Assembly (NCBI GenBank): GCA_947172415.1
Contig: OX359196.1
Span: 250,501-314,500, forward strand
Source: Chondrosia reniformis
Taxonomy: Eukaryota; Porifera; Demospongiae; Chondrillida; Chondrillidae
Direction of reading: 5' to 3'
DNA length: 64,000 nt
Part shown: positions 2,279 to 56,000 of the stretch, in pieces
How positions within the stretch are numbered: position 1 is the stretch's first letter
Layout: each line of letters opens with the position of its first letter
Notes under the pieces: model-generated
The model's database searches: none
What the model was told of the DNA's origin: nothing
What the model saw: the letters and a program-made list of their open reading frames with translations, nothing else
Translations under genes and position numbers: made by a program

Positions 2279-4430
2279 TTAAAATGAAAAACTGCTCTTG
2301 TTGAGATATTGATCGGCATCCTTTAGCTCATCGGCAGGGTTGTAGGTGGTGGGCGGATCAATAATGGGAGGGCTTGCCGTAGTTTGATGAGCCTGTACAG
2401 TGCAGTGATGAGAAGCTTCTTCTGTGAACACCTGTCCTTCTGATTCCCCTTCTGGGACGCGCTGCCCCCCAGGGTAGGCTGTCAGTAAAACAGTTGTGGT
2501 TGTGCCAGCTGGCTGTCCCAGGGCTTGGGCATCCCTATCACTCACTGTCACTGTCTGAGTGGCGTACTGAACCTGACCCGTCTCATCGGCTACTTGCTGC
2601 AGTCTCACTGCTGTGTCTGCCAGCGAGGCATCCGACAGCGTGGCCAACTCCTCATTTTCCTGCCCAACACTGCCAGTGTCGATAGTAAAGACTTGAGAGG
2701 AACTTGTAGCATCTCCCTGAGTGGGCTCTTCCAAGCCTTGTTCTCCCTCCATGCTCTTCAGCTGCTGATCTACTGGTTGTGTAATGCCCTCCTCAGAGTC
2801 CTCCTCCGGAGTAAACTTTGGAAGCAGGTCCAGTCTACCATGGTAGGCATAGCAACTTATCACAATCTCCCTCAGTGCGTCAGTCCAGTTTGTTGTCCTA
2901 TCCTCCGGAGGTCGTGGATCTGATCGGATGTTCTCCCAGGGAAGGTGGTCGGGCCACCAAATGGGTTTGTGGCCGTCCCTCCCCCAACCTGGCTTCCCTC
3001 TGTTCTGAGAGTACCTCAACATGAAAGGTATAAAGTTTCTAAGTTGTGCCTGCGTCATCATTTGGACCGGAGTGGGGATGCCATTGAACACCAACGGAGG
3101 CAGCTCAAAGAGATTCATACTGGATTTAGTCTGCTCATCCATGACACCTTGATTGAGTGTGCTATTCATTTCTTCCACAATATTATCTCTGTGTTTCTTA
3201 ACTATCGTACATAACGGGTCAGCGCCAAACACTTCAAATTCTGCAGTTTTTCCAGGCTGGAATGTCACTATACAAGCCTGCATTCCAACTCGGGTGGAAA
3301 ACTCGTGAACGGTGTCTTTTAATCGCTTCAACAACTTGGTTTTGTGTCTCTTTCTAACTGCAGGATTAGACTCAAAAGTGTAAGACTTCTTCTTTTTACA
3401 TCCACTAACAATAGCAGCTGCCGCAGCCATTCCTTAATTTGAAATAAAAAGAGGGAAAGTGTGAGAGTGTGAGGGAGAGGGAGGGATGGAGATGGAAGGC
3501 GAGGCAGGGTGAGAGTGTGAGGGAGAGGGAGGGAAGGTGAGGCAGGGTGAGAGGGTGAGGGAGAGGGAGAGAGAGGATGGGGGAGGGGGAGGGTGAGTGA
3601 GAATGCTAGAGTGATGAAATCAGACACATGTATTGCACAACCACCACAAATGTACATGGTCCAGTTACATCATATTGGGGAGGTTCATGGAGGAGGTGGT
3701 GGAGAAGGTGAACTATCATATTGGGAAGGTTCATGGAGGAGGTGGTGGAGAAGGTGAACTATCATATTGGGAAGGTTCATGGAGGAGGTGGTGGAGAAGG
3801 TGAACTATCATATTGGGAAGGTTCATGGAGGAGGTGGTAGAGAAAGTGAACTATCATAGGCAGACTACACAGCTTACCAACAGGTCCTGAGAGAGCCAAT
3901 CTGGTCGTCATGTCGTCTCCTTGAAGCATTCCTTCTGTGATGAGGGAGGATGGGTCGAAATCTCCACCATTGGAAGACGTTTCATCAAGTACATCAGGAT
4001 TCTCGGGGTCTATTCTCGATCTCTTACGCGGGGGGATACCAGCGCCCCCTCCCATCCCGACTTCCTCCACTTGTGTGGTGATCTGGCTGTAGTCCACCTC
4101 CTGATAGCCAGTCAAATGGAGTCCTCCGGAGCTGGTAGCCATTGTCACATTGCTGGAGCTGTCGGCGGGTACGGGACCAGAGCCGTGCAGTCTACTCACC
4201 TCATCGAACGCGTGGATGTCCCCCAACTCCAACTGGGTCAGAAAATCGCTCCCAGTAGAACTTTGAACAAGAGTCGTTGTATTCGAACCTTCAACGAGAC
4301 CCGATCCTCCTATGTGAACGGAGTGAGTGCTCTGATTGGTGGAGTGAAGCTGTGGCAGCTCTTCACGACTACTATCCAAACGGGTATCCTTTCCATTATT
4401 CGAATTTTGAGTTTTCATGGATCTGCTCAT
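2279..4430 (-). CDS. NRF1: Nuclear respiratory factor 1 family transcription factor (NRF1/ewg/P3A2)
   Basis: Sequence-specific activator of nuclear genes for mitochondrial function. Exon 1 is 3878-4430 and exon 2 is 2279-3432, giving 568 aa. The junction GPVG/MAAAAA is exactly the one expected in this family (phase 1, G|GA). The N-terminal part is acidic, Ser/Thr-rich and has a basic patch PPRKRSR that could be a nuclear localisation signal. The DNA-binding/dimerisation domain spans about residues 186-390: FESNPAVRKRHKTKLL, the paired MTQAQLRNFIPFMLRYS and GRGKPGWG, then KPIWWPDHLPW and CYAYHGRLDLL. A Thr/Gln-rich activation region follows, with TQTVTVSDRDAQ. I chose ATG 4430 (MSRSMKTQ) because further upstream the frame enters the divergent promoter. 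The intron holds a 46-bp repeat. The promoter is shared with the plus-strand gene at 4584. Confidence 0.95.
3660..3855 (-). repeat. 46-bp tandem repeat in NRF1 intron
   Basis: Four nearly identical 46-bp copies (core aaggttcatggaggaggtgg) inside the NRF1 intron (3433-3877). The region 3440-3600 next to it is also purine-rich. Confidence 0.9.
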
Positions 4431-23254: not shown

Positions 23255-26005
23255 ATGGTACAAGAAGTTATCTATATTCTATTTATTGTCCTCCTATGTC
23301 ATGGCAACCCTCTGCCCCCGAATAACACTGATCCAGATCCTCCTTCAGAATTTTGTGAAGATATCTTGATATACCAATTGGAACAGCAGAATTTAGCAGG
23401 AAAAGGTGTGTTTGTATAAATAACCTAATTACTGATATCCAAACTTTAATAGAGCACTTAACAGCCACTTTAAACTGATGGAGAATAAATAGGACACTAG
23501 ACATAATACCCTAGTTAAATTGTGTATACATTTCAGCTTGTAAGAGACACCCAAGTTCTGAAGTATATAACACCTTTCTCTCTTGGGCTTACCTACCTAG
23601 GTGAGATATTTCAAGGAGATATCCTTCTTCCTTTACAAGCCACTTCCAGGGCACACCGGAGGGCTGCACTAAGATTTTCAGCCATCAAGGGCGGATACTG
23701 GCCCAACCGAACAATACCTTACAAATTTGATCCTCAACTTGGTAAGTAACTCATTTCTATGCTTCTCGTTTGCCTTCTGTCAAGTGAGTTTTAGAATATG
23801 AGAAGAGAAGCCAGCTATGAGTCTTGTGGTGTAATTGGTCATATTTTCCGAGTGACTGCACTCTTTATGGGGTCAGTTATTTGGTAGGAAGTGCCAATTA
23901 ATGGACTGACTGGTGTCCTCTATGTATGCATACATATATAGCTTGAGCATTTTGAATGCACCAATGATTGCAGCAATTGTTATGGACATGTCTCATACAC
24001 ATATATCGAGTTTCTTCTCTAGACTTAAACTTTTCTATTACTTGTGTGACAGTGTTTCAGGTGTATCCAATGACCGATCAGCTTTTTATTTATTTATTTT
24101 CAGCAATATCACTTTCACAAAGCTTTGTACACAAAAGCCATCTATTTCTTTCTCATTAGTTTTGCCCACCTCATCGTCTTCATGTTCCACAATTGGATGC
24201 GCCATGTGTATACTCTAATGTTCCTGCTGTAGGTCCTGAATACATTCAGTCCTATATGAAGGCTATATGGGCTTGGCAGAATGTCACTTGTATCAGATTT
24301 ATTCCTCGAACTCAAGAGCAAGATTACATTTATCTTAGGGGTGGATCTGCGTAAGTCCCTATTATTGTACGTATTGGTGAATGTATACAAGAGGGAACAT
24401 GCCACTCCCTCTTAATGTTTATATCTAGATTGTGTTCCTCCCTCTTAATGTTTATATCTAGATTGTGCCCCTCCCTCTTAATGTTTATATCTAGATTGTG
24501 CCCCTCCCTCTTAATGTTTATATCTAGATTGTGCCCCTCCCTCTTAATGTTTATATCTAGATTGTACCCCTCCCTCTTAATGTTTATATCTAGATTGTGC
24601 CCCTCCCTCTTAATGTTTATATCTAGATTGTGCCCCTCCCTCTTAATGTTTATATCTAGATTGTGCCCCTCCCTCTTAATGTTTATATCTAGATTGTGCC
24701 CCTCCCTCTTAATGTTTATATCTAGATTGTGCCCCTCCCTCTTAATGTTAAATGTACTGAAACAGACAAGTCATAACTGTTTCTAATGGCATAATACCCA
24801 ATTCTATTTGGTATTCTCATAAGAACGTTCATGATGGAAAAGTTACAATAGCATCAAGAGTTGGTGTTAGACAGCTCTAATCTTCCTTCCTTTTAGATGC
24901 TATTCTTACATCGGACGTCACAGAGGGAAGCAAGATGTATCAATTGGTCCAAACTGCATGATGGGAGGCAACGCCATGCATGAGCTCGGACACGTTATTG
25001 GCTTTGGACATGAGCAGTCACGGCCAGACAGAGATCAGTTTGTCTACATTAATTGGAATAACATTCCAAGAACACATTGGCATAACTTTTGTAAATTTAG
25101 AACTGATGAAATTGACAGTCGGGGATCTACTTATGATTATGGGAGCATAATGCATTACAGCAATAGATCATTTGGGGAGGGCGGAGGTATCACCATTGTA
25201 CCAAGTGAGCAAGGTGCCATTATTGGACAGAGAGTTAACATAAGCAAGCAAGATGCACTGCAGGCAAATAAGATGTACAACTGTCCCCAACCTCCCGCCT
25301 CCACACCTGTACCATCCTCAACAACTATAGTGGCACTGCCCACTTCTTCTATATCAGCAATAATTGCCACGCCCACTTCTTCCACAACATCAATAGCACC
25401 CGAACCCACTCCAACACCAAATACTGTAATTCCACCAAGAGACTTTCTATCTTCAGGTAAGTGTGGCTAGATATTAATCACATGACAGTCATGTGACATA
25501 TGCACAGGAGGTGACACTTTGTTGTTCCATATTAGGTAACCACATTTCGCTGCTGGATATTGCAGACAGTACCAAACGTTTTATATGTAAGACCTCACTC
25601 AAAAAATGTGTCATCACTCTATGTGGATCATCTTGCTCAGCGGGTGATTTTGTGTTATTAAAAGATCCACGAAAAGAGGATCACTACATTCGTGCGGGCG
25701 ATGTAGTTGCTCTTCGCGATGCCAAGGGTCACCACATCAAGTGTACTCAGCAGTGTCAATCAGCCTCATGTCATAGTACACTTTTTGAGGGAAGCAACTG
25801 TGCTCAGTTTAAATACCTACTGACATCTCCTGATAGAACCATTGGCCAGAGGATCCAACATGGCGATCGGATAATCCTTCACAATCCCAGTGATCATAGG
25901 AATGCGATTAAATGTACAAAGAAGTACTGCAACTATCAATCAGTTTGTGACCAAATCTCCTGTTCCTCCTCTGTAACAGAGTTCAGAGTTGACAAGCATA
26001 CTTGA
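23255..26005 (+). CDS. Secreted astacin metalloprotease with Cys-rich three-repeat tail (copy 2)
   Basis: 479-aa protein in five exons: 23255-23405, 23601-23741, 24233-24350, 24897-25456, 25536-26005. The N terminus MVQEVIYILFIVLLCHG is a signal peptide. The FQGDI propeptide switch follows, then GGYWPNRTIPYKF at the start of the mature protease. The catalytic motif is [19 protein letters not shown] (His165, His169, His175; Glu166), with the Met-turn SIMHYSNR, where the usual Met-turn Tyr (SIMHYxxxAF) is partly retained. A Thr/Ser/Pro linker (about residues 275-320) joins a tail with three repeats: FICKTSLKKC, then RAGDVVALRD..IKC, then QHGDRIILHN..IKC. Same domain order as copy 1, so the two arose by inverted duplication. 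The acceptor at 23601 is chosen over one at about 23536 because only it keeps phase. Confidence 0.9.
24390..24755 (+). repeat. 33-bp minisatellite in astacin intron
   Basis: Eleven nearly perfect copies of a 33-bp unit (core ttaatgtttatatctagatt) in intron 24351-24896, immediately before the catalytic exon. Confidence 0.95.
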
Positions 26006-28525: not shown

Positions 28526-29392
28526 TCAAACAATTGTCAGCCCTTCACAAGCCTTATGTTCAAACACTGTCACTGCCCCCATACTCCCAACCCCTGCAAT
28601 CAAAAACAATAAAGTTGCTACTGACTCCCTGGGCGCATGTATTTTGCTAATAGTTGGTAAAATTGATCCAAGGGCAAGATACAGGAAGCCACCAGCCGTG
28701 AAGGCCAGGATCCAGGTAACAGAATTGGTGCAATGATGATTTATTAGGCCGACTAACACTCCAATCAGACCTCCAAATGAAGTTAGAAATTGAGCTTTTG
28801 CTGCAGACCAGAGATTGAATCCGGAACTGATTAAAACTGCAAAGTCTCCCACCTCGTGAGGGATCTCGTGGCAGAGAATGGCTATAGTCGTAATGATTCC
28901 TACCCAAGGACTCACTAAATAGCTCGCTGCGATCGTAAGACCGTGAGCAAAGTTGTCTATACAGTTTGCAAGTAAATTTAAATAGCCGGTTATTTTCGAC
29001 ACATTTCTATCCCGTCCAGATCCGTCCTTCGGCTTCTCCTGTCCCTGCTCCGTGTGCTTCATAATCTTTTCTATCACAAAAAATACGACTACTCCCAACA
29101 AGATCCATCCACTCGATGACGAAGATGCGCTTCCCAGCCAAACTTCAGGAAGAAGGTGGAAAAAGACATCACCAAGGAGACAGCCAACAGCGAAACTCAA
29201 TACCGAGCTTATGTGCTTCGAGTAGATGAGATTACCGTAGAATATCGGTAACACTCCGCTCAGGCCAACGAGCAGTGCGGAGAATATAGAGAGAGCCCAG
29301 GTTGGGTTCACAAGCATATGTACCAGAAGAGACGAATTTTTTCTATCTTGCAATGTAAAATTTAACGGGAAATAATCCAATAATTTGTCCAT
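28526..29392 (-). CDS. SLC39A13: ZIP13-like zinc transporter (SLC39A13 family)
   Basis: 288-aa single-exon reading frame from ATG 29392. ZIP transporters carry Zn2+ into the cytosol; ZIP13 acts at Golgi/vesicle membranes. Key motifs: LLGDVFFHLLPE in TM2, DNFAHGLTIAAS in TM4, and the metalloprotease-like HEIPHEVGDFAVLI in TM5, the LIV-1 subfamily signature; it reads HEIPHE as in ZIP13, not HELPHE. The stretch ITGYLNLLANCIDNFAHG is almost the vertebrate ZIP13 sequence. Seven or eight hydrophobic segments are visible. The frame stays open upstream to about 29485 but only with a GTG start there, so I use the first ATG; a short upstream coding exon with a signal peptide remains possible. Having a single exon among intron-rich neighbours is unusual and could reflect an old retrocopy. 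Confidence 0.88.
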   Translation of the reverse strand: MDKLLDYFPLNFTLQDRKNSSLLVHMLVNPTWALSIFSALLVGLSGVLPIFYGNLIYSKHISSVLSFAVGCLLGDVFFHLLPEVWLGSASSSSSGWILLGVVVFFVIEKIMKHTEQGQEKPKDGSGRDRNVSKITGYLNLLANCIDNFAHGLTIAASYLVSPWVGIITTIAILCHEIPHEVGDFAVLISSGFNLWSAAKAQFLTSFGGLIGVLVGLINHHCTNSVTWILAFTAGGFLYLALGSILPTISKIHAPRESVATLLFLIAGVGSMGAVTVFEHKACEGLTIV

Positions 29393-29641
29393 CTCTTTCA
29401 CACTCCCCTTGCCAAGCCGATGATCACTGAACTCCGAAACGAAGAGTCTAAACGAAATGTCATTGTTGTTACACAAAGAAGTCACGAGCCCCTACCCATG
29501 TCGGAAACTTCGACCTTTGACCCCTTAGTATAGTTTCGCCTTGTAATCAAGCCGTTTCCATGACCACCATTTAAATGGCCGAATGAGTTCGTTGGTAACA
29601 AACTTGAACGTGTGGCTGAATCGAGCCAGTACAACGAAGAA
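29393..29641. promoter_or_regulatory. Bidirectional promoter ZIP13 / TTLL3-8
   Basis: 249 bp between divergent ATG codons. No TATA box; the sequence is less AT-rich than the flanks. Shared use is inferred from spacing. Confidence 0.45.
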
Positions 29642-32600: not shown

Positions 32601-34722
32601 ATAGGTATGGAGTCATATGACATCAAAGGTACAAGGTTACGTACGTATAATGGCATTTCTGTTTGCATTGTAATAGAGCGTCCACTTTTGGTGTACAACA
32701 CAAAGTTTGACATCAGACAGTGGTTTCTGGTGACAGAGTGGAACCCTCTGACCATGTGGATGTACAGGGTACGACTGACACGTGTGCACAGCACCTATGG
32801 GGCACCACTTGTATTGAGATAACTGAGAATACAGCATATGAATATGGTGATAAGTGGGATTGTGAATGAATCTATATTCTATCATTGAATATGGTGATAC
32901 CTACTTATATATCACGTTACCAGGGCAACTGGGTGATATCTGGGGTGTTACAAACCTTATATATCTACTGTATATCAGGAATTGAATGCGTGTGTCAAAA
33001 GAATGCGAATTGCGAGTTTTGATTGTACGTATACACAATCTTTTGACATGTATTGATTTGATACCTCGGTAATTTCACATACACGTCCCATACACCTAAG
33101 CTTTATCTCCCATTCTTTTAACCACAATGTTTACTTATACCCGTAATTCACAATCTTTTACTCTCGCATTCAATTCCCAATATACGGTATCTACATATCA
33201 CCATTTTGAAGTGTTTTATTATCAGTCATGTAATATAAGCAGTGCCCACAGCACAGAGCTGTGCTATCCGGCCTTACCTCTCTTTGTTTTGCCTCCTGTG
33301 TGGTGCAGTCCAGCTATTTGAGGTTCAGCTCCAACCCGTACAGTTTGGAGGACCTGGACTGCAGTATCCACTTGTGTAACAACTCCATTCAGAAAGACAC
33401 AAACAACAGTAACACCAGAGACCCACGCCTGCCCCACGACAACATGTGGGACCACAGAAAGTTCATTAACCACCTCTGGTAAGTCAGTCTAGACACCTCT
33501 GGTAGTCAGTCTAGACACCTCTGGTAGCCAGTCTAGACACCTCTGGTAGCCAGTCTAGACACCTCTGGTAGCCAGTCTAGACACCTCTGGTAGCCAGTCT
33601 AGACACCTCTGGTAGCCAGTCTAGACACCTCTGGTAGCCAGTCTAGACACCTCTGGTAGCCAGTCTAGACACCTCTGGTAGCCAGTCTAGACACCTCTGG
33701 TAGCCAGTCTAGACACCTCTGGTAGCCAGTCTAGACACCTCTGGTAGCCAGTCTAGACACCTCTGGTAGCCAGTCTAGACACCTCTGGTAGTCAGTCTAG
33801 ACACCTCTGGTAGTCAGTCTAGACACCTCTGGTAGTTAGTCTAGACACCTCTGGTAGTCAGTCTAGACACCTCCTTTGGATAATTCTTTACAGTTGACTA
33901 TTTCCCATTCTCCTACTTACTAGCACCAAAGGTCAAGATGGTCATAAGTTGTGGGAGGAGTCTATCTATCCTGCAATGAGAGATGCCATCATTCATGTCC
34001 TTCAAGCTGTACATGAGATAATAGAACCACAACCGTCTCACACATTTGAACTTTTCGGAGCTGATTTCATGGTCACCCAAGACTTCAAGACGTGGTTGAT
34101 AGAAGTAAACAGCAGTCCCTCAATGGCATACAGCACGCCCATCACAAAGAAGCTCTGCAGGGCAGTGCTGGAGGACACACTGAAAGGTGACCAGAGCCAC
34201 ACGTACGTATATGTACATACGTACGTACGTAGTGCCTCTGGTCTGGTACTGTGTTGTGCAGCTGTGGCATGAATAATATAACACGCTTATTTTATTCACA
34301 TCTGGTACATGAATACAATGCTACGTCTACTTTAGAGTAAAGGCCTATAGGGAACTAAACCTACGTAGGGAGAGCATACATAATGTTATTCATTACTTCT
34401 ACTGGTATAAGTACGTACTACTATTATACTCTTCTTAATATTAGTCCACTTGATTAGCTTGATAATTTTGTTTCTCTTTCATAAGTTGTATTGGATAGAA
34501 GATCTGACAAGACATGCTTTACTGGTGATTTTGAGTTAGCATACAAACAGGTATGGATTAGTGGAGTGAACAGGATATGTACGTAGCTTATATATATAGT
34601 GATATGTACCTATTGTTGTGTGTGTACAGCCCAAGTTTGACCAATCCAACTATTTTGGAGTTCAGTTGTGCGTGGAAGGAACGGGAATACCCAAGGGAAA
34701 GCAAACTAGAGCAACCAAATGA
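29642..34722 (+). CDS. Tubulin glycylase, TTLL3/TTLL8 family
   Basis: 853-aa tubulin-tyrosine-ligase-like enzyme that adds glycine to tubulin in cilia. Exons: 29642-30109, 30465-31136, 31297-31425, 31487-31601, 31956-32205, 32360-32604, 32677-32768, 33309-33478, 33924-34186, 34486-34550, 34630-34722. The first 200 residues are basic and contain two ciliary-type TFxP motifs ([23 protein letters not shown]). An acidic Ser/Glu stretch (near residue 365) precedes the catalytic core. The core shows [29 protein letters not shown], the ATP-grasp loop [45 protein letters not shown] and [15 protein letters not shown], all as in TTLL3/8. ATG 29642 (MASETVPIT) is the first ATG; upstream the frame begins only with GTG. 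Subfamily 3 versus 8 is unresolved. Confidence 0.93.
30128..30440 (+). repeat. (CCAT)-rich repeat in TTLL intron
   Basis: Degenerate catc/cacc tetranucleotide blocks fill intron 30110-30464. Confidence 0.9.
31225..31296 (+). repeat. TA-rich repeat with gtacgta steps
   Basis: Alternating atatatatat and gtacgtat runs immediately before the acceptor at 31296. It is strongly self-complementary and could form cruciforms (inference). Confidence 0.8.
31705..31870 (-). mobile_element. Dispersed element A, partial copy 3
   Basis: In TTLL intron 31602-31955. Shares cctatagggaactaaacct and agagctttggatgaggatac with the other copies, in the orientation of 52025-52270. Confidence 0.7.
32208..32345 (+). 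repeat. 24-bp minisatellite in TTLL intron
   Basis: About six copies of a unit with core cgcctcctatcctctctcct in intron 32206-32359. Confidence 0.9.
33480..33872 (+). repeat. 22-bp minisatellite in TTLL intron
   Basis: About 18 copies of a 22-bp unit (core cacctctggtagccagtcta). The array starts at the splice donor of the exon ending 33478, and its unit copies the exon's last bases (cacctctggta), so the array seems to have grown from the exon-intron junction. Confidence 0.95.
34305..34375 (-). mobile_element. Dispersed element A, partial copy 4
   Basis: In TTLL intron 34187-34485. Contains ctactttagagtaaaggcct then atagggaactaaacct, the same block as copy 3. Confidence 0.65.
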
Positions 34723-35233: not shown

Positions 35234-38200
35234 CTATTTAATTAGTCCCTTTTGCTTCAAAGTCTTGATAAACTGCTTCTGTCTGTAGACATCCACTGCC
35301 AACCCGAGAGAGAGGAAGATGTTGATGAGCTAAGGGACAAGAACGAGAGGACATGTTACTGAAATGTTAATCGCACACAATTCAATCTTGATCTGAATAC
35401 CATAATAAATTATCAAATGCTAGGAACAGCTTAAATTTTTAGCAAATACTTGTGGCCCAGTGGAGAAGAAGAGAAGTAACTCTTAAAACTCTTGTATCCT
35501 CATCCAAGCTCTCACTAGGTTTAGTTCCCTATAGGCCTTTAATCTTAAGTAGATGTAGCATGTTGAAAAGTTGTGTTAAATTATTCTTGTAAACTTGAAG
35601 AGCACGTCATAATGTATTCAAAGATAATAATTCACACTAAAGACACCTATACAGGTACAATGATTCAGAGAGTTTACCAGCTCAGAGGGTATTACTTACT
35701 TCAAGGACAATGAGTCCGATGCCAATTCCTCCCAGAACAAGGGAATATTGCATTATAGTAGCAGAAATTGTTGCCAGACAACCTTGCTGGTGAATGTTGG
35801 ACAGCCTCGTTGGGTCATTTCGCGCACTATATCCACACTGGTAGTTTATTACCTCTGTGTCTGGTGGCTATGGAAACAGGAGAGTACATGTATCTGGTGG
35901 CTATGGAAACAGGAGAGTACATGTATCTGGTGGCTATGGAAACAGGAGAGTACATGTGTCTGGTTGCTATGGAAACAGGAGCATGTGTCTGGTGGCTATG
36001 GAAAAATGAGAGTACATGTGTCTGGTTGCTATGGAAACAGGAGAGTACATGTGTCTGGTTACTATGGAAACAGGAGAGTACATGTGTCTGGTTGCTATGG
36101 AAACAGGAGCATGTGTCTGGTGGCTATGGAAACATGAGTGTACATGTGTCTGGTTGCTATGGAAACAGGAGAGTACATGTGTCTGGTGGCTATGGAAACA
36201 GGAGAGTACATGTGTCTGGTTGCTATGGAAACAGGAGAGTACATGTGTCTGGTGGCTATGGAAACAGGAGAGTACATGTGTCTGGTTGCTATGGAAACAG
36301 GAGCATGTGTCTGGTGGCTATGGAAAAATGAGAGTACATGTGTCTGGTTGCTATGGAAACAGGAGAGTACATGTGTCTGGTTACTATGGAAACAGGAGAG
36401 TACATGTGTCTGGTTGCTATGGATATACATATATCACATGTACATGTACGTATATAATATGTACACATGTACATACATACAATATATGCATGTATAGAGT
36501 ACGTCTTACCATGACGCAACATGAAAATGGAGTACCACATTTCTGTAGAGCAGTGCTGTTGCAGGAGAAGTAGAGATTCTTGTCCCAATCATTATAGCTG
36601 TCAAATCCACAACAAGTGAATGTCTACAAAAGAGACTAAAATATAAAGAGTTGAGCATTGATTAATCCACTGTCTCACCATTTGAATTTGATCAATCAGG
36701 TTCTGAAGAGTAGGATCGTCTTGATATCCGTTTATTGCTTCAAGGGTCTGCTGTCTTCCGAATGCCTCAACCTGGAGACAGAAGTGTCATCAACACACAT
36801 CAACCCATGAGGTGTGCTCCGTCAACCTACCTCTCCGCCAAGGAGGAATACTGCTACCACCACGCCAACCTCAATCAAAACAACAATTGACATCAGAATA
36901 CAATACTGTGGAATGAAATACAAAACATATCAATGAATTAATATTATTGTAATGTTATATAAGAAGCTTATAATACACACTATTACTACTGCTATATTAT
37001 ATGTGATCTTGTGTGTAATTACTGTTTTATTGTAGCCTGGGCAGGCTGAACATCAACGATCTCATTATTAGATGTTTACATTTTCCTATTCTGGGAAATA
37101 GGTACTATATAATTTCCAGGATGTGGATATTTGAAAACTTAAAAGTCACCTTGCTACAGGTTAACCCTCAGCTTCCTAGGTCCCTTGCTACAGGTTAACC
37201 CTCAGCTTCCTAGGTCCCCTTGCTACAGGTTAACCCTCAGCTTCCTAGGTCCCCTTGCTACAGGTTAACCCTCAGCTTCCTAGGTCCCTTGCTACAGGTT
37301 AACCCTCAGCTTCCTAGGTCACCTTGCTACAGGTTAACCCTCAGCTTCCTAGGTCCCTTGCTACAGGTTAACCCTCAGCTTCCTAGGTCACCTTGCTACA
37401 GGTTAACCCTCAGCTTCCTAGGTCACCTTGCTACAGGTTAACCCTCAGCTTCCTAGGTCACCTTGCTACAGGTTAACCCTCAGCTTCCTAGGTCCCCTTG
37501 CTACAGGTTAACCCTCAGCTTCCTAGGTCACCTTGCTACAGGTTAACCCTCAGCTTCCTAGGTCCCCTTGCTACAGGTTAACCCTCAGCTTCCTAGGTCA
37601 CCTTGCTACAGGTTAACCCTCAGCTTCCTAGGTCACCTTGCTACAGGTTAACCCTCAGCTTCCTAGGTCCCCTTGCTACAGGTTAACCCTCAGCTTCCTA
37701 GGTCACCTTGCTACAGGTTAACCCTCAGCTTCCTAGGTCACCTTGCTACAGGTTAACCCTCAGCTTCCTAGGTCACCTTGCTACAGGTTAACCCTCAGCT
37801 TCCTAGGTCACCTTGCTACAGGTTAACCCTCAGCTTCCTAGGTCCCCTTGCTACAGGTTAACCCTCAGCTTCCTAGGTCACCTTGCTACAGGTTAACCCT
37901 CAGCTTCCTAGGTCACCTTGCTACAGGTTAACCCTCAGCTTCCTAGGTCACCTTGCTACAGGTTAACCCTCAGCTTCCTAGGTCCCCTTGCTACAGGTTA
38001 ACCCTCAGCTTCCTAGGTCCCCTTGCTACAGGTTAACCCTCAGCTTCCTAGGTCCCTTGCTACAGGTTAACCCTCAGCTTCCTAGGTCACCTTGCTACAG
38101 GTTAACCCTCAGCTTCCTAGGTCACCTTGCTACAGGTTAACCCTCAGCTTCCTAGGTCACCTTGCTACAGGTTAACCCTCAGCTTCCTAGGTCCCTGGGG

Positions 38201-44533: not shown

Positions 44534-46211
44534 ATGGAAGATGGCATTGCATTGAGCTATGGAAACGCTCTTCTGAGACAATCTGACCTCAAAATCATAT
44601 CTCAGCAAAATGGATGGCTGAATGACAGAGTAATCGGGTTTATATTCGAGTGAGACACTTTATAGCTTTTTGAAATTACCGATGCAAATAGTATTTTTAT
44701 TTCAATAAAGGCACTTCGAAGCAGAACAATACGAGAGGTGGAACGGGAAATTTGCACTCATAACGGCCGATGTCACGCAGCTAATCAAAGTTTGTTCAGG
44801 TCTGGAAATGCTGTGACAAATTTGGAAATATATTTACATTTATATCACTTTTGACCCCACACCTATGTACAGGGGCTACTTGTGTATGACCCCACACCTA
44901 TGTACAGGGGCTACTTGTGTATGACCCCACACCTATGTACAGGGGCTACTTGTGTATGACCCCACACCTATGTACAGGGGCTACTTGTGTATGACCCCAC
45001 ATCTTATGCTCCACTGGGCCAGACAGCTGTTTCTAGGAATTAATGCCCTTCATTAGTGACCCTTGGAGTCATTCATTTTAGCTAATAGACATCTCTAAAT
45101 TCATTTACAAAAGTACTCATTGCTTATAATCTTATAACCTGTCAAGTGCTTCCATTTAGGTGACGAGTTAGGATTAATTCTGGAACCTTTACAACTGAAG
45201 GAGAAACTACTTGTGGTTTTGACAGTTAATGATAACGAATCTAAAACTGTAGCTGGAGGAAGTCATTGGAGTTTACTTGTGTACCATCGCCATGGCAACA
45301 GTTTCCACCACTATGACTCATTTCATTCATCAAATGCACGCTCAGCAAAAATTTGTGCTTTAAAACTCAAGAGCCACCTGGAGGTGGAGGACAGGGAAGA
45401 TGTGGTTGTCATGGAGATGGAAACACCTCAACAAACAAACGGTCAGCTATTGTGTAAATACTTTAAATACTGATAAAGTGACTTTATCTCTAAAGATTGT
45501 TAACAGGCCAGCTAAAGGCTTCTCTATGTAAAGTTTAAAGAGCTTCATGAACATAAAGGTTTCTTCATTTTTTCAAAATTGTGTTGCTGAGTCTCATTCG
45601 ATTCTCAATGTATGCAACCAGCAACCTCTATTACTTTATTATAATGTAAAGTGTAAACTTTATATTTGTGCTGAATGCATGCATGCTGTATTTTGGTAAG
45701 GTTTAGGTCAAGCCCTGCATGTTTGTATCTGGTTAATTCCTCTAATTGAACTACGTATCAGCAACGTAACATTTGTTAATTATATGTGTCAGCAATAAAG
45801 AATTTTATGTTGCTAATAGTTCAAATAGCTCAATTAATCAGACTGTATTGTGTGTATTAGACTTATTAATTAGTTGTTAATTTTCAGACAACATACTATA
45901 GACTCTCAAATGAATTGTATATTGTATACATAATTCCTCCTATATAAAATGTATCTAATGGCTGGCTAGTTGTGTTATTGTGTGTCATGTCATGTTGCAC
46001 GCTCCTCGCATGCACTGTAGGGCACGACTGCGGAGTGTACATGTGTCTGGTGACAGAATATGTCCTGAAGAAGGAGTTTGATAAAGATTTGACTAACAGC
46101 CTTAAGGAGTTTGTTTCCCCGGCAACCGTCAGCCAATGGAGACTAAACACGATAGAGCTCATTCGCAGACTTAATGCACAATCTACAAATTCTGTAAAAC
46201 TCACAAAATAA
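44534..46211 (+). CDS. SENP8: NEDD8-specific protease SENP8/DEN1
   Basis: 225-aa cysteine protease (C48/Ulp1 clan) that matures NEDD8 and removes it from substrates. Exons: 44534-44649, 44711-44799, 45160-45441, 46021-46211. The start MEDGIALSYGNALLRQSDL corresponds to the vertebrate VLSYMDSLLRQSDV; WLNDRVIGFIFEHFEAEQY and ADVTQLIK follow. The catalytic triad is visible: His104 in AGGSHWSLLVY, Asp121 in FHHYDS, Cys166 in GHDCGVY, with the oxyanion Gln in TPQQTNG. Length equals the vertebrate enzyme (212 aa) plus a short C-terminal extension. Its stop is only 94 bp from the stop of the convergent kinase-like gene. Confidence 0.95.
44868..45000 (+). repeat. 35-bp minisatellite in SENP8 intron
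   Basis: Four perfect copies of a 35-bp unit (core gaccccacacctatgtacag) in intron 44800-45159, directly abutting a fragment of dispersed element A. Confidence 0.95.
45000..45070 (-). mobile_element. Dispersed element A, partial copy 6
   Basis: Contains ccactgggccagacagctgt then ttctaggaattaatgccctt and cattagtgac, the gaaacggctgtc end of the element, in the orientation of copy 7. Confidence 0.7.
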
Positions 46212-46305: not shown

Positions 46306-49300
46306 TCAAAACATGGGTAATGGAATTGGAGTCCATTTTGACTTTTTTGAAACTTGTATAGATTGCTCAATCTCTGACAGCTGACAAAGGGCTGTAGTTA
46401 GTTGCCATAGTGACTGATCAATGGGTGTCCCGTATCCTGGTAAGTGAATCACACTGAGTGTGCTGGACGCCTCTCCAGTCATGTCATTGACTGCTTCGGA
46501 TTCCTTGTCCATTTTCAAACAGACACTTTTCAGTAACTGTAGCAGCTGAGGGTGCTTTGTGAGCCTGGGAAGGTGGAGCTTCAGTCTGACACTCACCCCT
46601 GATCCAGCATTGCTTGGGCAAGAGGTCAAGTAGCCGTACTCGGGAAGAAAGGCAAATTGGTGTCCTTCAGACTGAATGTTGACTTCTAAAGATTTAAGGA
46701 AATCATTCATCTTTTTGTATTCAGTTGCAATATCTGAGCTCTTTGCTGTGATGGACAGTAAAAGATGATCCTCTAAATTGATGTACCCACTCATATTGTC
46801 ATGCATTACGTAAACACCTCTCCTATTTGGCCAGTCCTTGAGTAGACCACACCAAGATGGCTTAATTAGAGGGTGTTCCCCATCACTGTCACTCCCTCCT
46901 TCCACATACCTCCCCAGCGAGGTGGAACTGAGAGCAGACTTCAGAATGAGCTCTACCTCAGTCCTCTCCACACGAGAGACGGAGGAGGGGAAGGGGAAGG
47001 AAGCAAGGTTCCTTCGTACTTCAAATGATAACGCTGCAAGGCAACTAAATTGAGATGACATCTTTTGGAGAGATACTAAGTCCTTGCTGTACTTTGGTTG
47101 CCAGGCAACCCCTGGGTACATGTTGTAGAGGACCTGAGTATACAGAGAACCAAATACAGAGTAGCACTCTGCTTCACAAGCAACCACACCCACTGGATGG
47201 GCGGGGTCAGTGACTCCAGGGGCTAGGACATCTTCTAAAGTGAATCCCCTTGAGGTCTGACAGCATTTGAGGAGATTGAACCTCTCCTGGGTGAGGGAGA
47301 GGGAGAGTGGAAGGGGAAGGAGAGAGACATCGGGGTAGTCATCGCTGGAGTCTGTACTGGTGGAGTGGAGTGGAATATCAAAAGTGGAGGAGTGCACACA
47401 GTACCCTTTAGCCAAATGTTGCTCTACTTGGTGAAGATAGTTGATTGAAGTACTCAAACGGGACAGAATATCAGGGGAATCAACACCACATGATTGCTGT
47501 GTTGCTATGGTAACCAGATCCTGGTCAACATTGACTATACTCAGTTGGCGAGTTCTGGCCAGGTTTCCAAGGAGTGGGTGGGAGGAGAGGGAGGGAAGAG
47601 AGAGGACACACTCCACGTGCAACCCAGTGCCACAGTTTGAAGGAGAAGTGGTGAGCATGCCATATAAGGAGTGGCAGGCCAGCGCATGACCACTTGAGAC
47701 AATACCTGACTTGATCTCTGAGAAAGAGTTCAATAGAGAACAATATGCAGCTGTAAGGCGGCCATCTTGGTTTACTGACGTTAGTGCAATGTGGTCTTCT
47801 CCATTGACAAATGCAGCCACAGAGCCATCTTTGTGTAGCCACACCCCTCTACCTGTTGGCCACTCCCTCATTATGTTTGTAGATACATACTGGGGATAGG
47901 CCAATTCCATTGCAAGGAAGCCACCATTTTTTAGCCTATTGCGCAATTCTGTAGGTAGGTTTTGTAATGAGTGATACACTCCGGGCAGCTCTTTCAGTAT
48001 GGCACTGACTACTTGCTCGAGATGATTCCTCTCTGCTCTGGTACATGAGGGAGGGAAGGCAAAGGAAGAAATATTGAAATGTAACTTGAGTTTAACCTGC
48101 TTCAATCCAGCTGGGTCAGTAAAGGAAGGCGAGATGGGAGATAGTTGGTTCTTGTTCGGCTCCATTGCACCACCCTGAGGTAGTCCATGACATTCTGAAA
48201 TTACCAGATGAAATAGCTCTCTAAAAGTATCATAGCACTCCTCATCGCCTGCCACTATTCCCGGATGGGAGGAGGGCGTGGCACTACACTCCTCATCCAC
48301 GCCCACCTGAATGGCCATATCCAGTGTGTATCCCTTAGAAGTACACTTGTTAATGAGAGTGCTGTACATGACAGGGCTGAGGTGCTCTGCTAACAAAGTG
48401 TTCTCAGCAGAGAGGTCCGGGAGGTTGGGGTGGTATTCAACCAAGGGACCACACCCCTCAACCACGCCCCCTAGGTATTCTAGTTCAGACAGACGCAAGG
48501 CAGCATCCACCAATCTCTGGACAGTGGTGTGCTCTGTATCAACAAATATGGTGTTACTGCAGAGCAGAAGGTCACCCGTGGAGAGACTACACACTGAGAC
48601 ATTAATAGGATTGAAGCACATTTGTAAGGCATCCATTTTACAGCAGGTCTGGCTGATTAAGACTCCGCATGACATGAGGAGACCAAACCTTTTGGGAAGT
48701 GAAGACAAAAACCCAAATTGAGGGTGAAAAGCAAATTTCGAATTGGAATCGGAATTAAATTGGGTTTCTATTTTTGGGTAGTAAAAGCACAAGTTCTGAT
48801 ATACTTGCAACATGTCGCTGGATTGATGGGAAAATACTAGAGACACGTGTTCCTCTGTGTTGGTGTATATAGCAAGATCTAGGTCTTTAGCCAGCCACAC
48901 CTCCACCTGGCCACACCCACTTGAGGAACTGATACAGTTACATTTAATAAGAGGGTGTGTCCTGTAATTATTAGAGAAATATTTCAGGGTCATCCTCTCA
49001 AATTCAATCCCTTTCAATTCAGCTAAGACAGCGGATACAGTACAGTTGATTTGTACTGGATCATATCTGGTGTGAGCTGCAAGAGGGAGGGCGGCCATGT
49101 TTCTTTGGACTTTGATGTAACAGTAGCTGATCAAATCTTCATCCAAGGTCCTTGCCCCATTCAAGTGGGTGGGGCCCAGTCCAGAGAGGGGCGGGGGACC
49201 AGAGGCATCCTTGTATGCTTCCTTGACTACTGGCAGCAGTACCTCACCAAACACCTCTAGTGTGTCCACGTCGTGTAGGGAGAACCAGAATCTGTCTGTG

Positions 49301-50726
49301 GGATTCTGTCTGCCATATTCCAGGGCCTGATCCAGGGAGCAGCCATGTTTGGTTGCCAATGGCGACAGTCTCAGGTAGGTGTTCTGGTCCAGTAGCCTGG
49401 CTAGTGTAGTCCCCTTATCCGGGAAGGTTGGGTAGTTGGCTAAAGCCTTTCCTCTGGCTCCCTTCACATCAGCAGGCAAAACGGAGTATATGTTATCCAT
49501 TTCAGCATACAGGGACTCCATTTCAGCAAGAAGTTCTGCTCGCTGTAAAACCTCATTAAGAAACTCCACTTCTGACAGCCCAAAGTGGTGGTCGTAGGAG
49601 ACTGTAAACGAGCCATCGCTAGAAAGGTTAGCAGTGGGGAACAGGTTTGGGGACTTGACAATGTCCTTGTACAAAGTGTGCTGAGATAGGGTCGAGAACT
49701 GAAGTGATAGCTCAACAGAAAGGTCAGCTCCAAGGTGATAGGGGGAGGAGTTGAGATGCCCAAATATGGAATGATGTGCAAATGAAAGATTATGGTATTG
49801 CAGGGCCAACCCCAGTTCACTGACACTCTCCAGATAGTCGCCAAATGCAGAGTGAAGAGTGTGCCCTTGTGCGACAGCAAACATGTGCATTAGGTGAAGA
49901 TGCTCCTGGGTGTTAATATGAGCAGTGAAGGTACCGTAAGTGCCGTGCCACGCCCCTCTTGCTTCAGGCCACTCCCTTGCCAGTCCAGCTGCTATGCACT
50001 GTGGGGAATCTGGTGGTCCTAACTGACAAGAACAGTTCAGAAACTCTTTTTTCTCTTTGGCATCCATCTCCTCAAATAGAATTGTCCTTCCCTGATAGTC
50101 GGACTGTGATATGGTCAGTGCATGGGCTAGTGCATCAAATAAGTACCGTCTCTCTCCTCTGGAGGAGGTCGTTGCCATGGCAAACTGAGCAACACTTCGG
50201 TGAGTGGATACAAAGCAGGACACAAAATGTTTTTCTTTTAAAAACTTTGCAGCAGACAATCTGCCTGCATCCAAGTTTGTGGCAATCTTAATTTCCTCCA
50301 AACTGTATACTTTACTAGAAAATGATTTTACAAAATCTGAAAAAAGGCCAATGCTGTTCACTTCAGGAAATAATATGCCATGCCCATTTGGAGTTGGGTG
50401 GTCCACTTCAACCTGGATAATAGTATCTAGGGAATTCCCCTGGGGAGTTGCTAACTGTTCTAGCTTGACATACAAGCTCCGAGGTAGAACTGTAGCAAGG
50501 AAAGACGATTCTTCTATATCAGGGTATCCATCTTGAAGATCTGTAAAATCTACAAATCTAATGCTAGGCTGTGGTGAAGACCTGCGGGAAGAAAGGTACA
50601 GCTTCCGGTATTTAGCAGGAGCAGTCACTAAGGGGACATTCACTAAAGAGGGTCATGGGAGTCAATGGGAGCTTACTGAATAGTCTGTTTCACAGCTACT
50701 GTTGCTTTTGAACCTCCGCATCCCAT
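46306..50726 (-). CDS. Four-domain phosphagen-kinase-like pseudoenzyme, predicted N-myristoylated
   Basis: 1441-aa protein from two exons: 50677-50726 and 46306-50581. Exon 1 encodes MGCGGSKATVAVKQTI, a classic N-myristoylation/palmitoylation signal; GTAAGC donor and CTTCCCGCAG acceptor join in phase. The large exon holds four tandem ATP:guanido phosphotransferase-like units (about residues 37-390, 400-725, 735-1090, 1100-1430). Each shows the family's N-domain (SKGYTLDMAIQVGV, SRGFTLEDVLAPGV), REWPTGRGVW-type and NGEDH-type motifs, and the TSPSNCGTG loop. Active-site residues are eroded: the SRVR nucleotide-binding arginines are replaced in all four, GTGLR lacks Arg, and the loop cysteine survives only in unit 4 (TSCPSN, Cys1338). 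The second acidic residue of NEEDH persists in units 2-4. It is probably catalytically dead. Sea-urchin flagellar creatine kinase has three such domains and is myristoylated, so a membrane or flagellar role is possible (inference). Confidence 0.88.
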
Positions 50727-50895
50727 AGCAGATCGGCTGTGTGACCCACTCTATTACCTAAAGTTATTTAATTAAACAAATCAAATATATATTTATATTA
50801 AATGCATTCAATTAACAGGCATCCATACCTCTTTAGCTTGCGGTGGACATATTTGCTATATCACCCAAGTAACGGGCTGTGGACACGCCCACAAA
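50727..50895. promoter_or_regulatory. Bidirectional promoter kinase-like gene / eIF4E3
   Basis: 169 bp between divergent ATG codons; AT-rich with tatatatttatatt at about 50786-50800. A minus-strand AG at about 50759 could be an acceptor for a 5' UTR intron of the kinase-like gene. Confidence 0.45.
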
Positions 50896-52976
50896 ATGGA
50901 GGCTGATAGTAAAGCTAAAGAAGTGGGCCACACCAATCGATCTAGCGCTGAACCAATTCCAACATCGTCCTCACGACTTCAAGTCAAGAAAAATGTCGTC
51001 CTCTCTTCCTCCCCAAACTTTCAACCCATCACTCTCCAAGAGGTTGGACGACTGAACAGTATCCCTGATCCGGAACAGGCCAGATTAGACACTCCGTGGA
51101 CATTTTGGTTCGAAAGGTTTGTTATTTTACCGAAATTTTCATTTGATCTCAATAGATAAACTATTTGTGTTCTTTCTCTTACTGATCATCGTGTCCTGTG
51201 AGACATTTCCTAAATGTGCGTTCGTACGAGCTTACACTAATGGCGGTCTATATGCGCATAACCCAGCCCTCTTTAGCCTTCCCTGACTAGTCTGGTTTTA
51301 CACGTATGTCATGATTCTAGTTATAGTTACTAAGGAGTGTGTTCTAGTGCTGGAGTTGTGAAACACCATCCCTGGCCAACCGCTATGTGGCCTGCGGTCG
51401 AGCGGCTCTCCAGTTAATGATGGATGTTTGATTTTGATTGATTAACGCAATTTGTTCTTGCTAGGTCGCCAAGAAGGGAATCGATGGAAGATTTCTCTTT
51501 AAGGAAACTTTGTGAAGTTCAGAATATCAAGGTGATAATCTTATTTTGATGTATCAGAATGTTTATATATTTAGTTAGTAAAATGAATGTGTAGGCCTTT
51601 TGGGGTGCGTTCAATAACATTACTCCAGTGGAGAGTTTGAATGAGAGAAATGGCTACCACCTGATGAGAGGAAATGTTGAGCCCACCTGGGAGGGAAATC
51701 CCCAAGGTGGTTACTGGTCATTTATATGCAGCAAAGACAGAACGGTACGTGAGATCCAGATGGAGCTAAATTAATTGTACAGTAGCTGTACAATCCCTAC
51801 GTGTTCACAGTTATTAGGTAATTCAATGGCAGATTCAGTGGGTGTTCTCAGTGCTGAAGCACCGCCCTCTTTGTTTAGTGTGTAATAGCCATATTTGGAA
51901 AGTACTACAAATTGTCTCATTCTCTGTTGCACTCCTATATAACTTAGCACCATCCCCCTCCTCCCCCTTCTGTGATCTGGACCTGTATTCCTAAGTTATC
52001 ATCATCAGACCCAGTAAAGGTTTTTACATGTGCATGAAAAATCTAAGATACCATTTTCCTACATGCTATGCCTATTCTGTAAAAGAACCTATAGGGGAAC
52101 TAAACCTGAAGAGAGCTTTGGATGAAGATACAGGAGTCTTTTCTTCCTTCTTTCATCTTCTCCACTGGGTCAGACAGCCGTTTCTGGGAATTCCACCCTT
52201 CATCAGTGATCCTGGGATTCTTTGTCTTTTACTTTATCTTGATCTTCATGTTGTACCATTAGTATACTTCAATCAATTATGCAACACTTACTTATTGAAT
52301 ATCTTATCAGATTGCAAACTATTAATAGCTTATCACATCTCCTCCAACAGCAAGATGTGTGGACAGAGATATTGTTGGCTGCAGTTGGAGAGCAGTTGTC
52401 AGAATCTGTTGATGAAGGTACTGTCACATTGCATTCAATCTAAATGGACCTTATTGCTCCTTTACTGGTTGCCTAGGTGATGATGTGGTTGGAGTAAGTG
52501 TACGTATTCGTGACCGTGAGGATATGATACAGATTTGGAATAAGGACTCTGTGCTCGCTCACAAAGCTACTGTACGCTATATGAGATATTTAATAACTAT
52601 CTAATAATCTTTTTTAATAAAACACTTGTGTTTTTAGGTTGCTGATAAGTTACGCAAGCTATGTCCAGACCTGGATGCCAGAGACAAGTATATTGGTGAG
52701 AATGTACATCTCAAATGTACGACTTTGAAAGTTTTAATTTGGTCTCAATTTCTTGTAGCATGTCGGGAAAAGATGACCCAGAAGCACCAGCCGCTGAGAC
52801 CCTACCCTCCCGAGCCCTTTATGCACCCCAGAGGCCCTGCCCCTCCCCATTACCCCTACCCCCAACCCCGCCCCCCCTTACACGACCCCAGATTCCCTAT
52901 GAACTATCCTCACAATATGTGGGACCAGGGACGGCCGTTCGGACGATTTAGACCTCCAGGTCCACCCAGACGATAA
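50896..52976 (+). CDS. EIF4E3: eIF4E class III cap-binding protein (eIF4E3) with Arg/Pro tail
   Basis: 291-aa translation factor of the eIF4E family. Exons: 50896-51116, 51465-51531, 51595-51744, 52351-52417, 52477-52571, 52638-52695, 52759-52976. The class III start of the fold PWTFWFER is present, then AFWGAFNNITPV, GYHLMRGNVEPTWEGNPQGG (cap-contacting Trp128-Glu129), VWTEILLAAVGEQ and GVSVRIRDREDMIQIWNKD, all close to vertebrate eIF4E3. The position of the second cap-stacking Trp of eIF4E is not aromatic, as expected for class III. Residues about 228-291 form an extra Pro/Arg/His-rich low-complexity tail ending GRFRPPGPPRR that vertebrate eIF4E3 lacks. The stop is only 86 bp before the next gene's ATG on the same strand. 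Confidence 0.93.
52025..52270 (-). mobile_element. Dispersed element A, near-complete copy 7
   Basis: In eIF4E3 intron 51745-52350. Reverse complement of 8285-8565 over most of its length, including cactgggtcagacagccgtt, ttcatcagtgatcctgg, and ataggggaactaaacctgaa. Together these two define an element of about 240 bp. Confidence 0.78.
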
Positions 52977-53062
52977 TTGGATTGTAACCTTTTCCTCAAT
53001 TTATAAGAAAAAGTGAAAAAGTTTATAATTAAAGGGAAGTCACGTGCTAAGCGTGACTCAAA

Positions 53063-56000
53063 ATGTCTGCCGCATTACGGGGATTGCAGAAGTTTTCACA
53101 GAGAAATATCTTTATTAATCGCGGGCTTTCGAGTACAGTGAGCTCGAATAAACTTCGCTTGGCAATTATTGGTCAGTCCGTATTTGGAGCTCAAGTCTAC
53201 AAGTCGCTGAGAGCTGATGGACACGAAGTCGTTGGCGTGTTCACCGTTCCCGATCAAAACGGCCGTCCAGATCCGTTAGCGGCGCAGGCCGTACAGGACG
53301 GTACTCCCGTGTTCAAGTACAAGAGATGGAGAACGAAGGGACAGCCGATCAAGGACATTCTGGAGGAGTACAAGTCGGTTGGAGCAGACCTGAACGTGTT
53401 GCCCTTCTGTAGTCAGTTCATCCCTATGGAGGCGATCGACTTCCCGAAACACGGCTCCATTATCTACCATCCGTCACTCCTGCCGAAACACAGAGGCGCT
53501 TCAGCCATTAACTGGTATGTCTCGTACATTGATACACTATGGCCTCGATACATTGATACACTAGGTCCGTACATTAATACACTAGGTCCGTACACTAGGT
53601 CCGTACATTAATACACTAGGTCCGTACATTAATACACTAGGTCCGTACATTAATACACTAGGTCCGTACATTAATACACTAGGTCCGTACATTAATACAC
53701 TAGGTCCGTACATTAATACACTAGGTCCGTACATTAGGTCCGTACATTAATACACTAGGTCCGTACATTAGGTCCGTACATTAATACACTAGGTCCGTAC
53801 ATTAGGTCCGTACATTAATACACTAGGTCCGTACATTAATACACTAGGTCCGTACATTAATACACTAGGTCCGTACATTAGGTCCGTACATTAATACACT
53901 AGGTCCGTACATTAATACACTAGGTCCGTACATTAATACACTAGGTCCGTACATTAATACACTAGGTCCGTACATTAGGTCCGTACATTGATAGCAGGCA
54001 TATATGCATGTTATATTTCATTGTGATGAGTGAGTTGGCTGAGATCATATTCAGTGTCCTAACATTGAGCAGGTTGCATCATTTGTTGTGTGTGATTAGT
54101 AGAGCTTCTGGTAAATCAACAAGTAAAGTATTGATATTTCCCACCTTCCTATATAGTACATCCCCTATATAGTACATCCCCTATATAGTACCACCTATAT
54201 AGTACATCCCCTATATAGTACATCCCCTATATAGTACATCCCCTATATAGTACATCCCCTATATAGTACATCCCCTATATAGTACATCCCCTATATAGTA
54301 CATCCCCTATATAGTACATCCCCTATATAGTATATCCTCTATATAGTATATCCTATATGTACCACCTATATAGTATATCCCCTATATAGTACATCCTATA
54401 TGTACCACCTATATCCCTATGTATGTCATAATATAGTAACTAGCCAATCAGCTTGCAGCAAATAACTCTATCATTGGAGGTTAATGTCTTAGCCTTCTTA
54501 ATGGGCATTGCAGTTCCTTTCACTGTCCTGCAGGACACTGATGGAGGGAGACCATGAGGCAGGGTTTACCATCTTTTGGGCAGACGATGGGCTGGACACT
54601 GGACCTATTCTACTGCAGAAGAAATGTACAATGGACATCAACGACACTGTGGATACCCTGTACAATCGTTTCCTATTTCCTGAAGGAATCAGATCAATGG
54701 TACGCAATGCACTGCATAGTGGCTCCTGAACTGGTCGCAGAACACTCTCCACTACATACATACACAGCGTGTACTCCTGGCTAACCTGCTGCATATTCAA
54801 GGCGACGGTTCCACTATACAAAGATTTAACTGAAGTGATAGGGCTTATTTGTCGCGATCATGATGATATATGATCATATTGCTGATGAAGACCTACGGGT
54901 TGAAACGTTCTATTCCAAAGATTTAATGTTGCTGTTGCTCAATAAACTTCATATATCAAATATTAACTATTTATACATATCTATAGATGTGTATACATAT
55001 TGTATTGTATTAGAGTGAGGCGGTAAAGTTGGTGGCTGAGGGGCGTGCCCCCAGGATCATTCAATGGGAGGGCGGGGCAACCTATGACCAGTTGTGGCAG
55101 AGTAAAGATTTGAGCAAGATCAACTGGAACCAACCTGCACTGATTCTTCACAATTTCATACGAGGAAATGACAAGGTTGGTCACATGTGTATACTTATGG
55201 GACTTATTGCATCACCACTGTATTCTATATGATGCACACCCTAGCTACCAGGGGCTTGGACTGTGATTGATGGAAAGAAGGTGACACTTTATGGCTCCAG
55301 TTTCCTAGACAACCGTGAGGAGGTCTCTGGGAGAGAGGTCTCCATTGAGGGACTTTCCCGTCCCGGTGTCATTACCTCTCAAGGGCTGGTGGTGTTTGGA
55401 GCGGATGACAAGAAAGTGCTGGTCAACCAGTTCCAACTGGAAGACGGCAAGGTTATTCCGGCCACCAAATATGGGAAGGAAGAACATCACGTTCACTTGG
55501 AACTGACGCCTGAAGAAGAGGCAATTGTTGAAAAGATTCAAGTGAGTTTGAATGTCTTTTATATAACCTATTAGTACCAGAGGATTTCTAAATATAGAAA
55601 ATCTGGAGTGGCATTTTGAACACGGATACCATTGAGAAGCAGACAGACTTCTTCAAGTCAGGAGCTGGTTCAATGGATGTTACTAGGTAATTTCTTTTGC
55701 ATGATACATATGTAGTACTCTATTTGAGGCCCACCATTCCTCATTTCCATTCCAGGCTGGTTGAAGAAGTGAAGGATCTCGCAAGCATCAGTTTGGAGAA
55801 CGAAGAGGTGTACATGAACACACTCTTTGAGGATTTTACCAATTTAGTGATCTTGAAAACCAGAGGTCACCACGAAACGGAGACTGTGGAGTTTACCCCT
55901 GTAAGTGACCACCTGTTCTAATCACATGACCATCACATGACCATCACATGACCATCATGTGTCTGTCCTGTTTCAAACTAGGTTGTGATCAATGCCAATA

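Follow-up and report, generated by a model that had tools for sequence, protein, structure and literature searches.

Does a gene that carries four copies of the phosphagen-kinase fold in one open frame, and none of the arginines that hold phosphate in such enzymes, still encode a kinase? Domain-based annotation would label it one. The gene lies on chr 8 of the sponge Chondrosia reniformis, in a 64-kb stretch of DNA that we refer to as the window (C8:250501-314500, positions below are those of the window unless a contig is named). An ORF scan detected a stop-free frame of 1448 codons on the minus strand (46306-50652), the longest in the window, with a runner-up of 510 codons. Base composition predicts 70 stops in this frame and there are none (log10 P ~ -31), whilst each of the remaining five frames across this DNA contains 55 to 85 stops. 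The frame has its first Met at residue 159, which lies 118 residues inside unit 1 and beyond its N-terminal domain, so a start further upstream is needed. Splicing a short exon 1 to exon 2 gives a predicted protein of 1441 aa, and the following features were placed in the window, with residues numbered here and throughout as in creatine kinase:

50727..50895, no strand: gap to a divergent plus-strand gene, eIF4E3-like by eye, with its ATG at 50896
50677..50726, minus strand: exon 1 (predicted), MGCGGSKATVAVKQTI followed by two further bases; candidate signal for N-myristoylation (Gly2) and palmitoylation (Cys3)
50582..50676, minus strand: intron (predicted) of 95 nt, GTAAGC ... TTTCTTCCCGCAG
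46306..50581, minus strand: exon 2, 4276 nt including the stop codon, four units in an open frame
49438..50529, minus strand: unit 1, with R130F, R132S, E231T, E232Q, R236H, C283S and R292S, R320 lost
48427..49437, minus strand: unit 2, with R130Y, R132K, E231T, R236S, C283L and R292S, R320 lost; E232 kept
47341..48426, minus strand: unit 3, with R130K, R132K, E231G, R236A, C283S and R292H, R320 lost; E232 kept
46309..47340, minus strand: unit 4, with R130S, R132E, E231L, R236L and R292S, R320 lost; E232 and C283 kept
2285-3433, minus strand: Nrf1 DNA-binding domain (Pfam)
24871-25467, plus strand: astacin peptidase (Pfam)
28532-29491, minus strand: ZIP zinc transporter (Pfam)
53057-53608, plus strand: formyl transferase (Pfam)

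The length of exon 2 matches the 4.27 kb of open frame given in the initial annotation, and the gap at 50727..50895 is probably a promoter common to both divergent genes. No Pfam match was found in the first 87 residues of the eIF4E3-like neighbour. The flanking genes are this neighbour, from 50896 onward (+), and a SENP8-like frame (by eye) at 45138-45473 (+), where Peptidase_C48 scored 18.2 bits, under its cut-off. Elsewhere the window contains long, nearly perfect minisatellites with 22 to 35 nt units in up to 30 copies (37145-38193, 35856-36423, 33471-33873 and 13864-14227), some of which yield open repetitive frames.

The reading of the frame as four tandem guanidino-kinase-like units, proposed in the initial annotation, holds. 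Searched with Pfam as a whole, the ORF contains four stretches each of the catalytic domain PF00217 (E 1e-66) and the N-terminal domain PF02807 (E 4e-46). For separate profile searches the units were cut at residues 42, 406, 743 and 1105 of the ORF, and here the outcome differed between domains: PF00217 scored above its cut-off of 22.4 bits in all four units (48, 37, 79 and 73 bits in units 1-4), whereas PF02807 exceeded its cut-off of 25.7 bits in units 3 (69 bits) and 4 (53 bits) and fell below it in units 1 (23.4 bits) and 2 (19.6 bits). In a profile-profile comparison with 12 arginine-kinase-type proteins, the alignments covered 276 to 328 columns, with probabilities of 98.1 to 99.9% in all four units, and took in the N-terminal parts of units 1 and 2. 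A model built from 15 intact-type proteins gave the units 56 to 152 bits, against 3.2 bits for the best of 1000 shuffled units. Unit 3 is the best conserved of the four and unit 2, which is without the WPxxRG stretch, the most degenerate. Judged by these profiles the four-unit array is real, with unit 2 its weakest member.

The residues on which catalysis depends are largely gone from this array. The phosphate pocket of creatine kinase is described as Arg130, 132, 236, 292 and 320 (PMC12387690); all five are present in each of the 15 comparison rows, and at these positions the units keep 0 of 20 under four MAFFT settings, as the initial annotation had stated in saying that the arginines were replaced in all units. 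Its further claim that the loop cysteine is left in unit 4 alone is borne out as well, Cys283 being replaced by S, L and S in units 1-3. Glu231 and Trp228 are lost in all four units, whilst Glu232 reads Q, E, E, E, a retention in units 2-4 that had previously been missed. The active-site signature C-P-x(0,1)-[ST]-N-[ILV]-G-T (PMC3679164) matches none of the four units, and together with the five arginines this bears out the earlier statement that no unit has an intact ATP site. Phe85, Gly278, Pro284 and Gly288 are present in every comparison row and every unit. Across 56 near-invariant columns of the comparison rows, the units retain 9 of 60 cells at ligand sites, listed in part from general background, and 71 of 164 elsewhere (pooled Fisher p 7e-5), therefore the chemistry appears to have been lost whilst structural positions were kept more often. 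Units 1 and 3 show this most clearly and are the only two for which the test is significant individually (p 0.004, 0.19, 0.03 and 0.36 in units 1-4). At the level of sequence, the loss of the catalytic motifs, with fold and coding frame retained, is strong evidence that the predicted gene product is a pseudoenzyme. The initial annotation had also concluded that the protein is under selection; what argues well against neutral decay is the open frame and the concentration of losses at ligand sites.

To propose a start of translation we inspected the minus strand of 50653-50900, which contains seven ATGs. Frames of just 4 or 5 residues begin at four of these, and one of 14 residues at 50656; the ATG at 50721 lies in a different frame from that at 50726, and only acceptors with weaker pyrimidine tracts (7 or 8 of 14) could be joined to it. 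The ATG at 50726 reads MGCGGSKATVAVKQTI as far as the GTAAGC donor and is the only one of the seven whose frame reaches the ORF via a good acceptor: four of the 14 AG sites examined share its phase (of these, one falls inside the donor and is unusable), and the richest pyrimidine tract of all 14 sites (12 of 14) belongs to an acceptor in phase with exon 1. The separate small exon adding MGCGGSK that the initial annotation had put forward is thus recovered as a likely, predicted 50-nt exon, in phase with the best nearby acceptor. Gly2, Cys3, Ser6 and Lys7 of this start fit the general pattern of an N-myristoylation and palmitoylation site. It is likely that translation starts in this exon and that the protein would be tethered to a membrane via myristoylated Gly2 and palmitoylated Cys3. 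Dual signals of trypanosome flagellar proteins are described as Gly2 plus a cysteine, small residues at positions 4-6 and a lysine patch (PMC4517888); the patch is absent from the sponge start, where only three of the first 25 predicted residues are basic.

From which kinase the units descend was examined by pairwise scores and trees. Each of the units has a better score against chicken creatine kinase than against the sponge's own arginine kinase (353 v 153, 159 v 89, 375 v 285 and 314 v 247 in units 1-4), and a 20-row tree, which holds one intact creatine kinase row and no flagellar sequence, groups creatine kinase, a chr 7 gene of the same genome and the four units with support 99/98. The unit branches in this tree are very long, at 1.7 to 3.6 changes per column. 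When units were placed singly, 1 and 3 joined creatine kinase (99) and 2 and 4 had no clear placement. The pair Asp54 and Arg148, described as bearing on the creatine kinase dimer interface (PMC12387690), is confined to creatine kinase, the chr 7 gene and units 1-3, unit 4 having Glu54. On this evidence units 1 and 3 are firmly assigned to the creatine kinase type, and units 2 and 4 would belong there by pairwise score and the joint tree. We do not claim a retained dimer surface, as over seven interface residues taken from PMC4754747 the units keep 10 of 28 cells, little over their overall identity of 24-34%. Nor do we claim that a two-unit ancestor was doubled (1 with 3, 2 with 4), as the evidence for this is mixed: the best partner of unit 1 is unit 3 and that of unit 2 is unit 4, units 2 and 4 pair weakly in the tree (64/60), and the highest-scoring pair overall is 3 and 4. 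The duplications were not recent, because the stretches that units share at the DNA level are short, in families of 16 to 31 nt under the length limit applied. A scan of the contig collection with a query of 76 aa yielded 33 bacterial loci, of which 14 were read, nine entered alignments and eight entered trees, one partly masked locus (L035) being left out. Scanning the same collection with an arginine-kinase alignment returned zero loci, and searching viral contigs with the whole ORF found no relative.

To place the gene among its relatives we scanned the genome (117,379,552 bases, 15 contigs) with PF00217, PF02807 and chicken creatine kinase, with results that agree. Five intronless arginine kinases, all with intact motifs, lie on chr 8 at 1.459-1.472 Mb; the cluster (C8:1459297-1472387, L017 and L018) consists of five closely similar genes, of which four share a strand and the fifth is on the opposite one. 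A protein on the arginine-kinase side, on chr 6 (L019:3733-4887), has all five phosphate arginines and Gly instead of the catalytic Glu232. The chr 7 gene (L020:3932-5345, C7:8425931-8427344) is of creatine-kinase type and degenerate (R130D, R132S, R236E, R320V). It shares with the window gene the creatine kinase side of the tree and a broken phosphate pocket, and differs from it in being a single unit, in having at least two inferred introns and in keeping R292 and C283; no lipidation-type start was found in the reading made of it. A minisatellite-like repeat lies in the intron ahead of its catalytic exon.

None of the three scans found an intact creatine kinase in the assembly. Matches to creatine kinase over more than 100 residues reach at most 46% identity, the top ones being the arginine kinases, and a shorter stretch, 41 residues of the chr 7 gene, has 51%. 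As BUSCO completeness of the assembly is given as 71.1%, with 12.2% fragmented (PMC12181767), an intact creatine kinase could have been missed. Its absence is worthy of note because the demosponge Tethya is reported to have mitochondrial and protoflagellar creatine kinases (Sona et al. 2004, via PMC6429109) and one paper regards the creatine system as characteristic of sponges as well as vertebrates (PMC3679164). At C6:7008790 PF02807 gave a sub-threshold match (19.1 bits) that was rejected as chance, since the sequence is interrupted by a stop and four phosphagen-kinase rows used in tblastn found nothing there. PF02274, a model that may not cover the animal creatine-making enzyme, gave one weak match on C13 that looks DDAH-like by eye (L022); at this locus (~450607-450852) two adjacent DDAH-like frames (by eye) have long identical stretches in common.

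Several known systems resemble the sponge protein in part. Two-domain arginine and taurocyamine kinases (PDB 4rf6, 4wo8) likewise fuse units head-to-tail in one chain, and are unlike the sponge protein in having two units, five arginines in each and an arginine or taurocyamine kinase lineage; they are not known to have a lipid exon. Sea urchin flagellar creatine kinase is described as associating with membranes through N-myristoylation (PMC13024116), to which the candidate lipidation signal of the sponge protein would correspond. Flagellar creatine kinase also fuses several domains and would share the creatine kinase lineage; it is an active enzyme of three units whereas the sponge protein has four, and the two are likened here by description. 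The Tethya enzymes come from another demosponge and one is protoflagellar, but they are described as cloned, expressed kinases (via PMC6429109). Among the open-licence papers listed by our literature searches, no title or abstract opening described a multi-domain or four-unit inactive form or a pseudo phosphagen kinase, which does not prove absence.

Our preferred reading, to which we give a probability of roughly 0.55, is that this gene codes for a catalytically dead creatine-kinase derivative of four units, probably lipid-anchored, which is kept as a scaffold. The protein may descend from a flagellar-type creatine kinase, with fused domains and a myristoylated start. This lineage, which has arginine kinases, would have abandoned creatine kinase catalysis and then retained the protein as a membrane-bound scaffold or docking array that offers creatine-kinase-fold surfaces to partners. 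The lipid exon would position the protein, the four folds would supply partner surfaces and no phosphate transfer would be performed by the four-unit protein. Of the membrane-anchored pseudo-phosphagen-kinase proposed in the initial annotation, the four degenerate units stand, the lipidation exon and the anchor are likely, and a scaffold or sensor role is conjectural. Purely by analogy, a cilium or flagellum is the likeliest place for such a protein. The fuller history, in which arginine replaced creatine as the phosphagen and a lipid-anchored flagellar creatine kinase became a four-unit, non-catalytic scaffold of the ciliary membrane, is offered only tentatively.

Arginine kinases are mostly monomers, which counts against one other role for the array, that of a docking or regulatory subunit positioning the sponge's active arginine kinases at the membrane. 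The five genes with intact motifs would provide the clients, and the Asp54-Arg148 pair of creatine kinase, with its bearing on dimer contacts, is kept in units 1-3; the remaining interface residues are however not above background, and we regard this role as rather unlikely. It is similarly doubtful that the protein acts as a metabolite sensor, which would have lost ATP phosphate binding, kept a cleft for guanidino or other small molecules and reported their level at the membrane: the fold seems to be kept in the profile comparison, as are Glu232 in three of four units and Cys283 in unit 4, but the cleft would have to work with Glu231 and Trp228 lost from every unit and Cys283 from three.

The great length of the unit branches (1.7 to 3.6 changes per column), together with the second degenerate creatine-kinase-type gene on chr 7, could also mark a relic on its way out, its role lost and its frame still open by chance. 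Neutral drift at such divergence would however give many stops and frameshifts, where 0 stops are found against 70 expected, and invariant positions away from the ligands are retained more often than those at them, which makes decay improbable. An enzyme after all, with altered chemistry and migrated residues, is the hardest of these to credit. Lysine stands in place of R132 in units 2 and 3 and of R130 in unit 3, and pseudoenzymes with migrated catalytic residues are described in other families (PMC10211241), yet the five arginines are kept in no unit and the active-site signature is found in none.

Phosphagen kinases are textbook energy enzymes. Four fused units without any phosphate-binding arginine suggest that it can pay to retain a fold that no longer catalyses, probably along with its position at a membrane. 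Should creatine kinase activity indeed be gone from this sponge while arginine kinases are left, its genome would be a natural experiment on phosphagen change and on the fate of the old machinery, and, if the proposed history is true, a metabolic enzyme array would have been turned into a structural part of the cilium.
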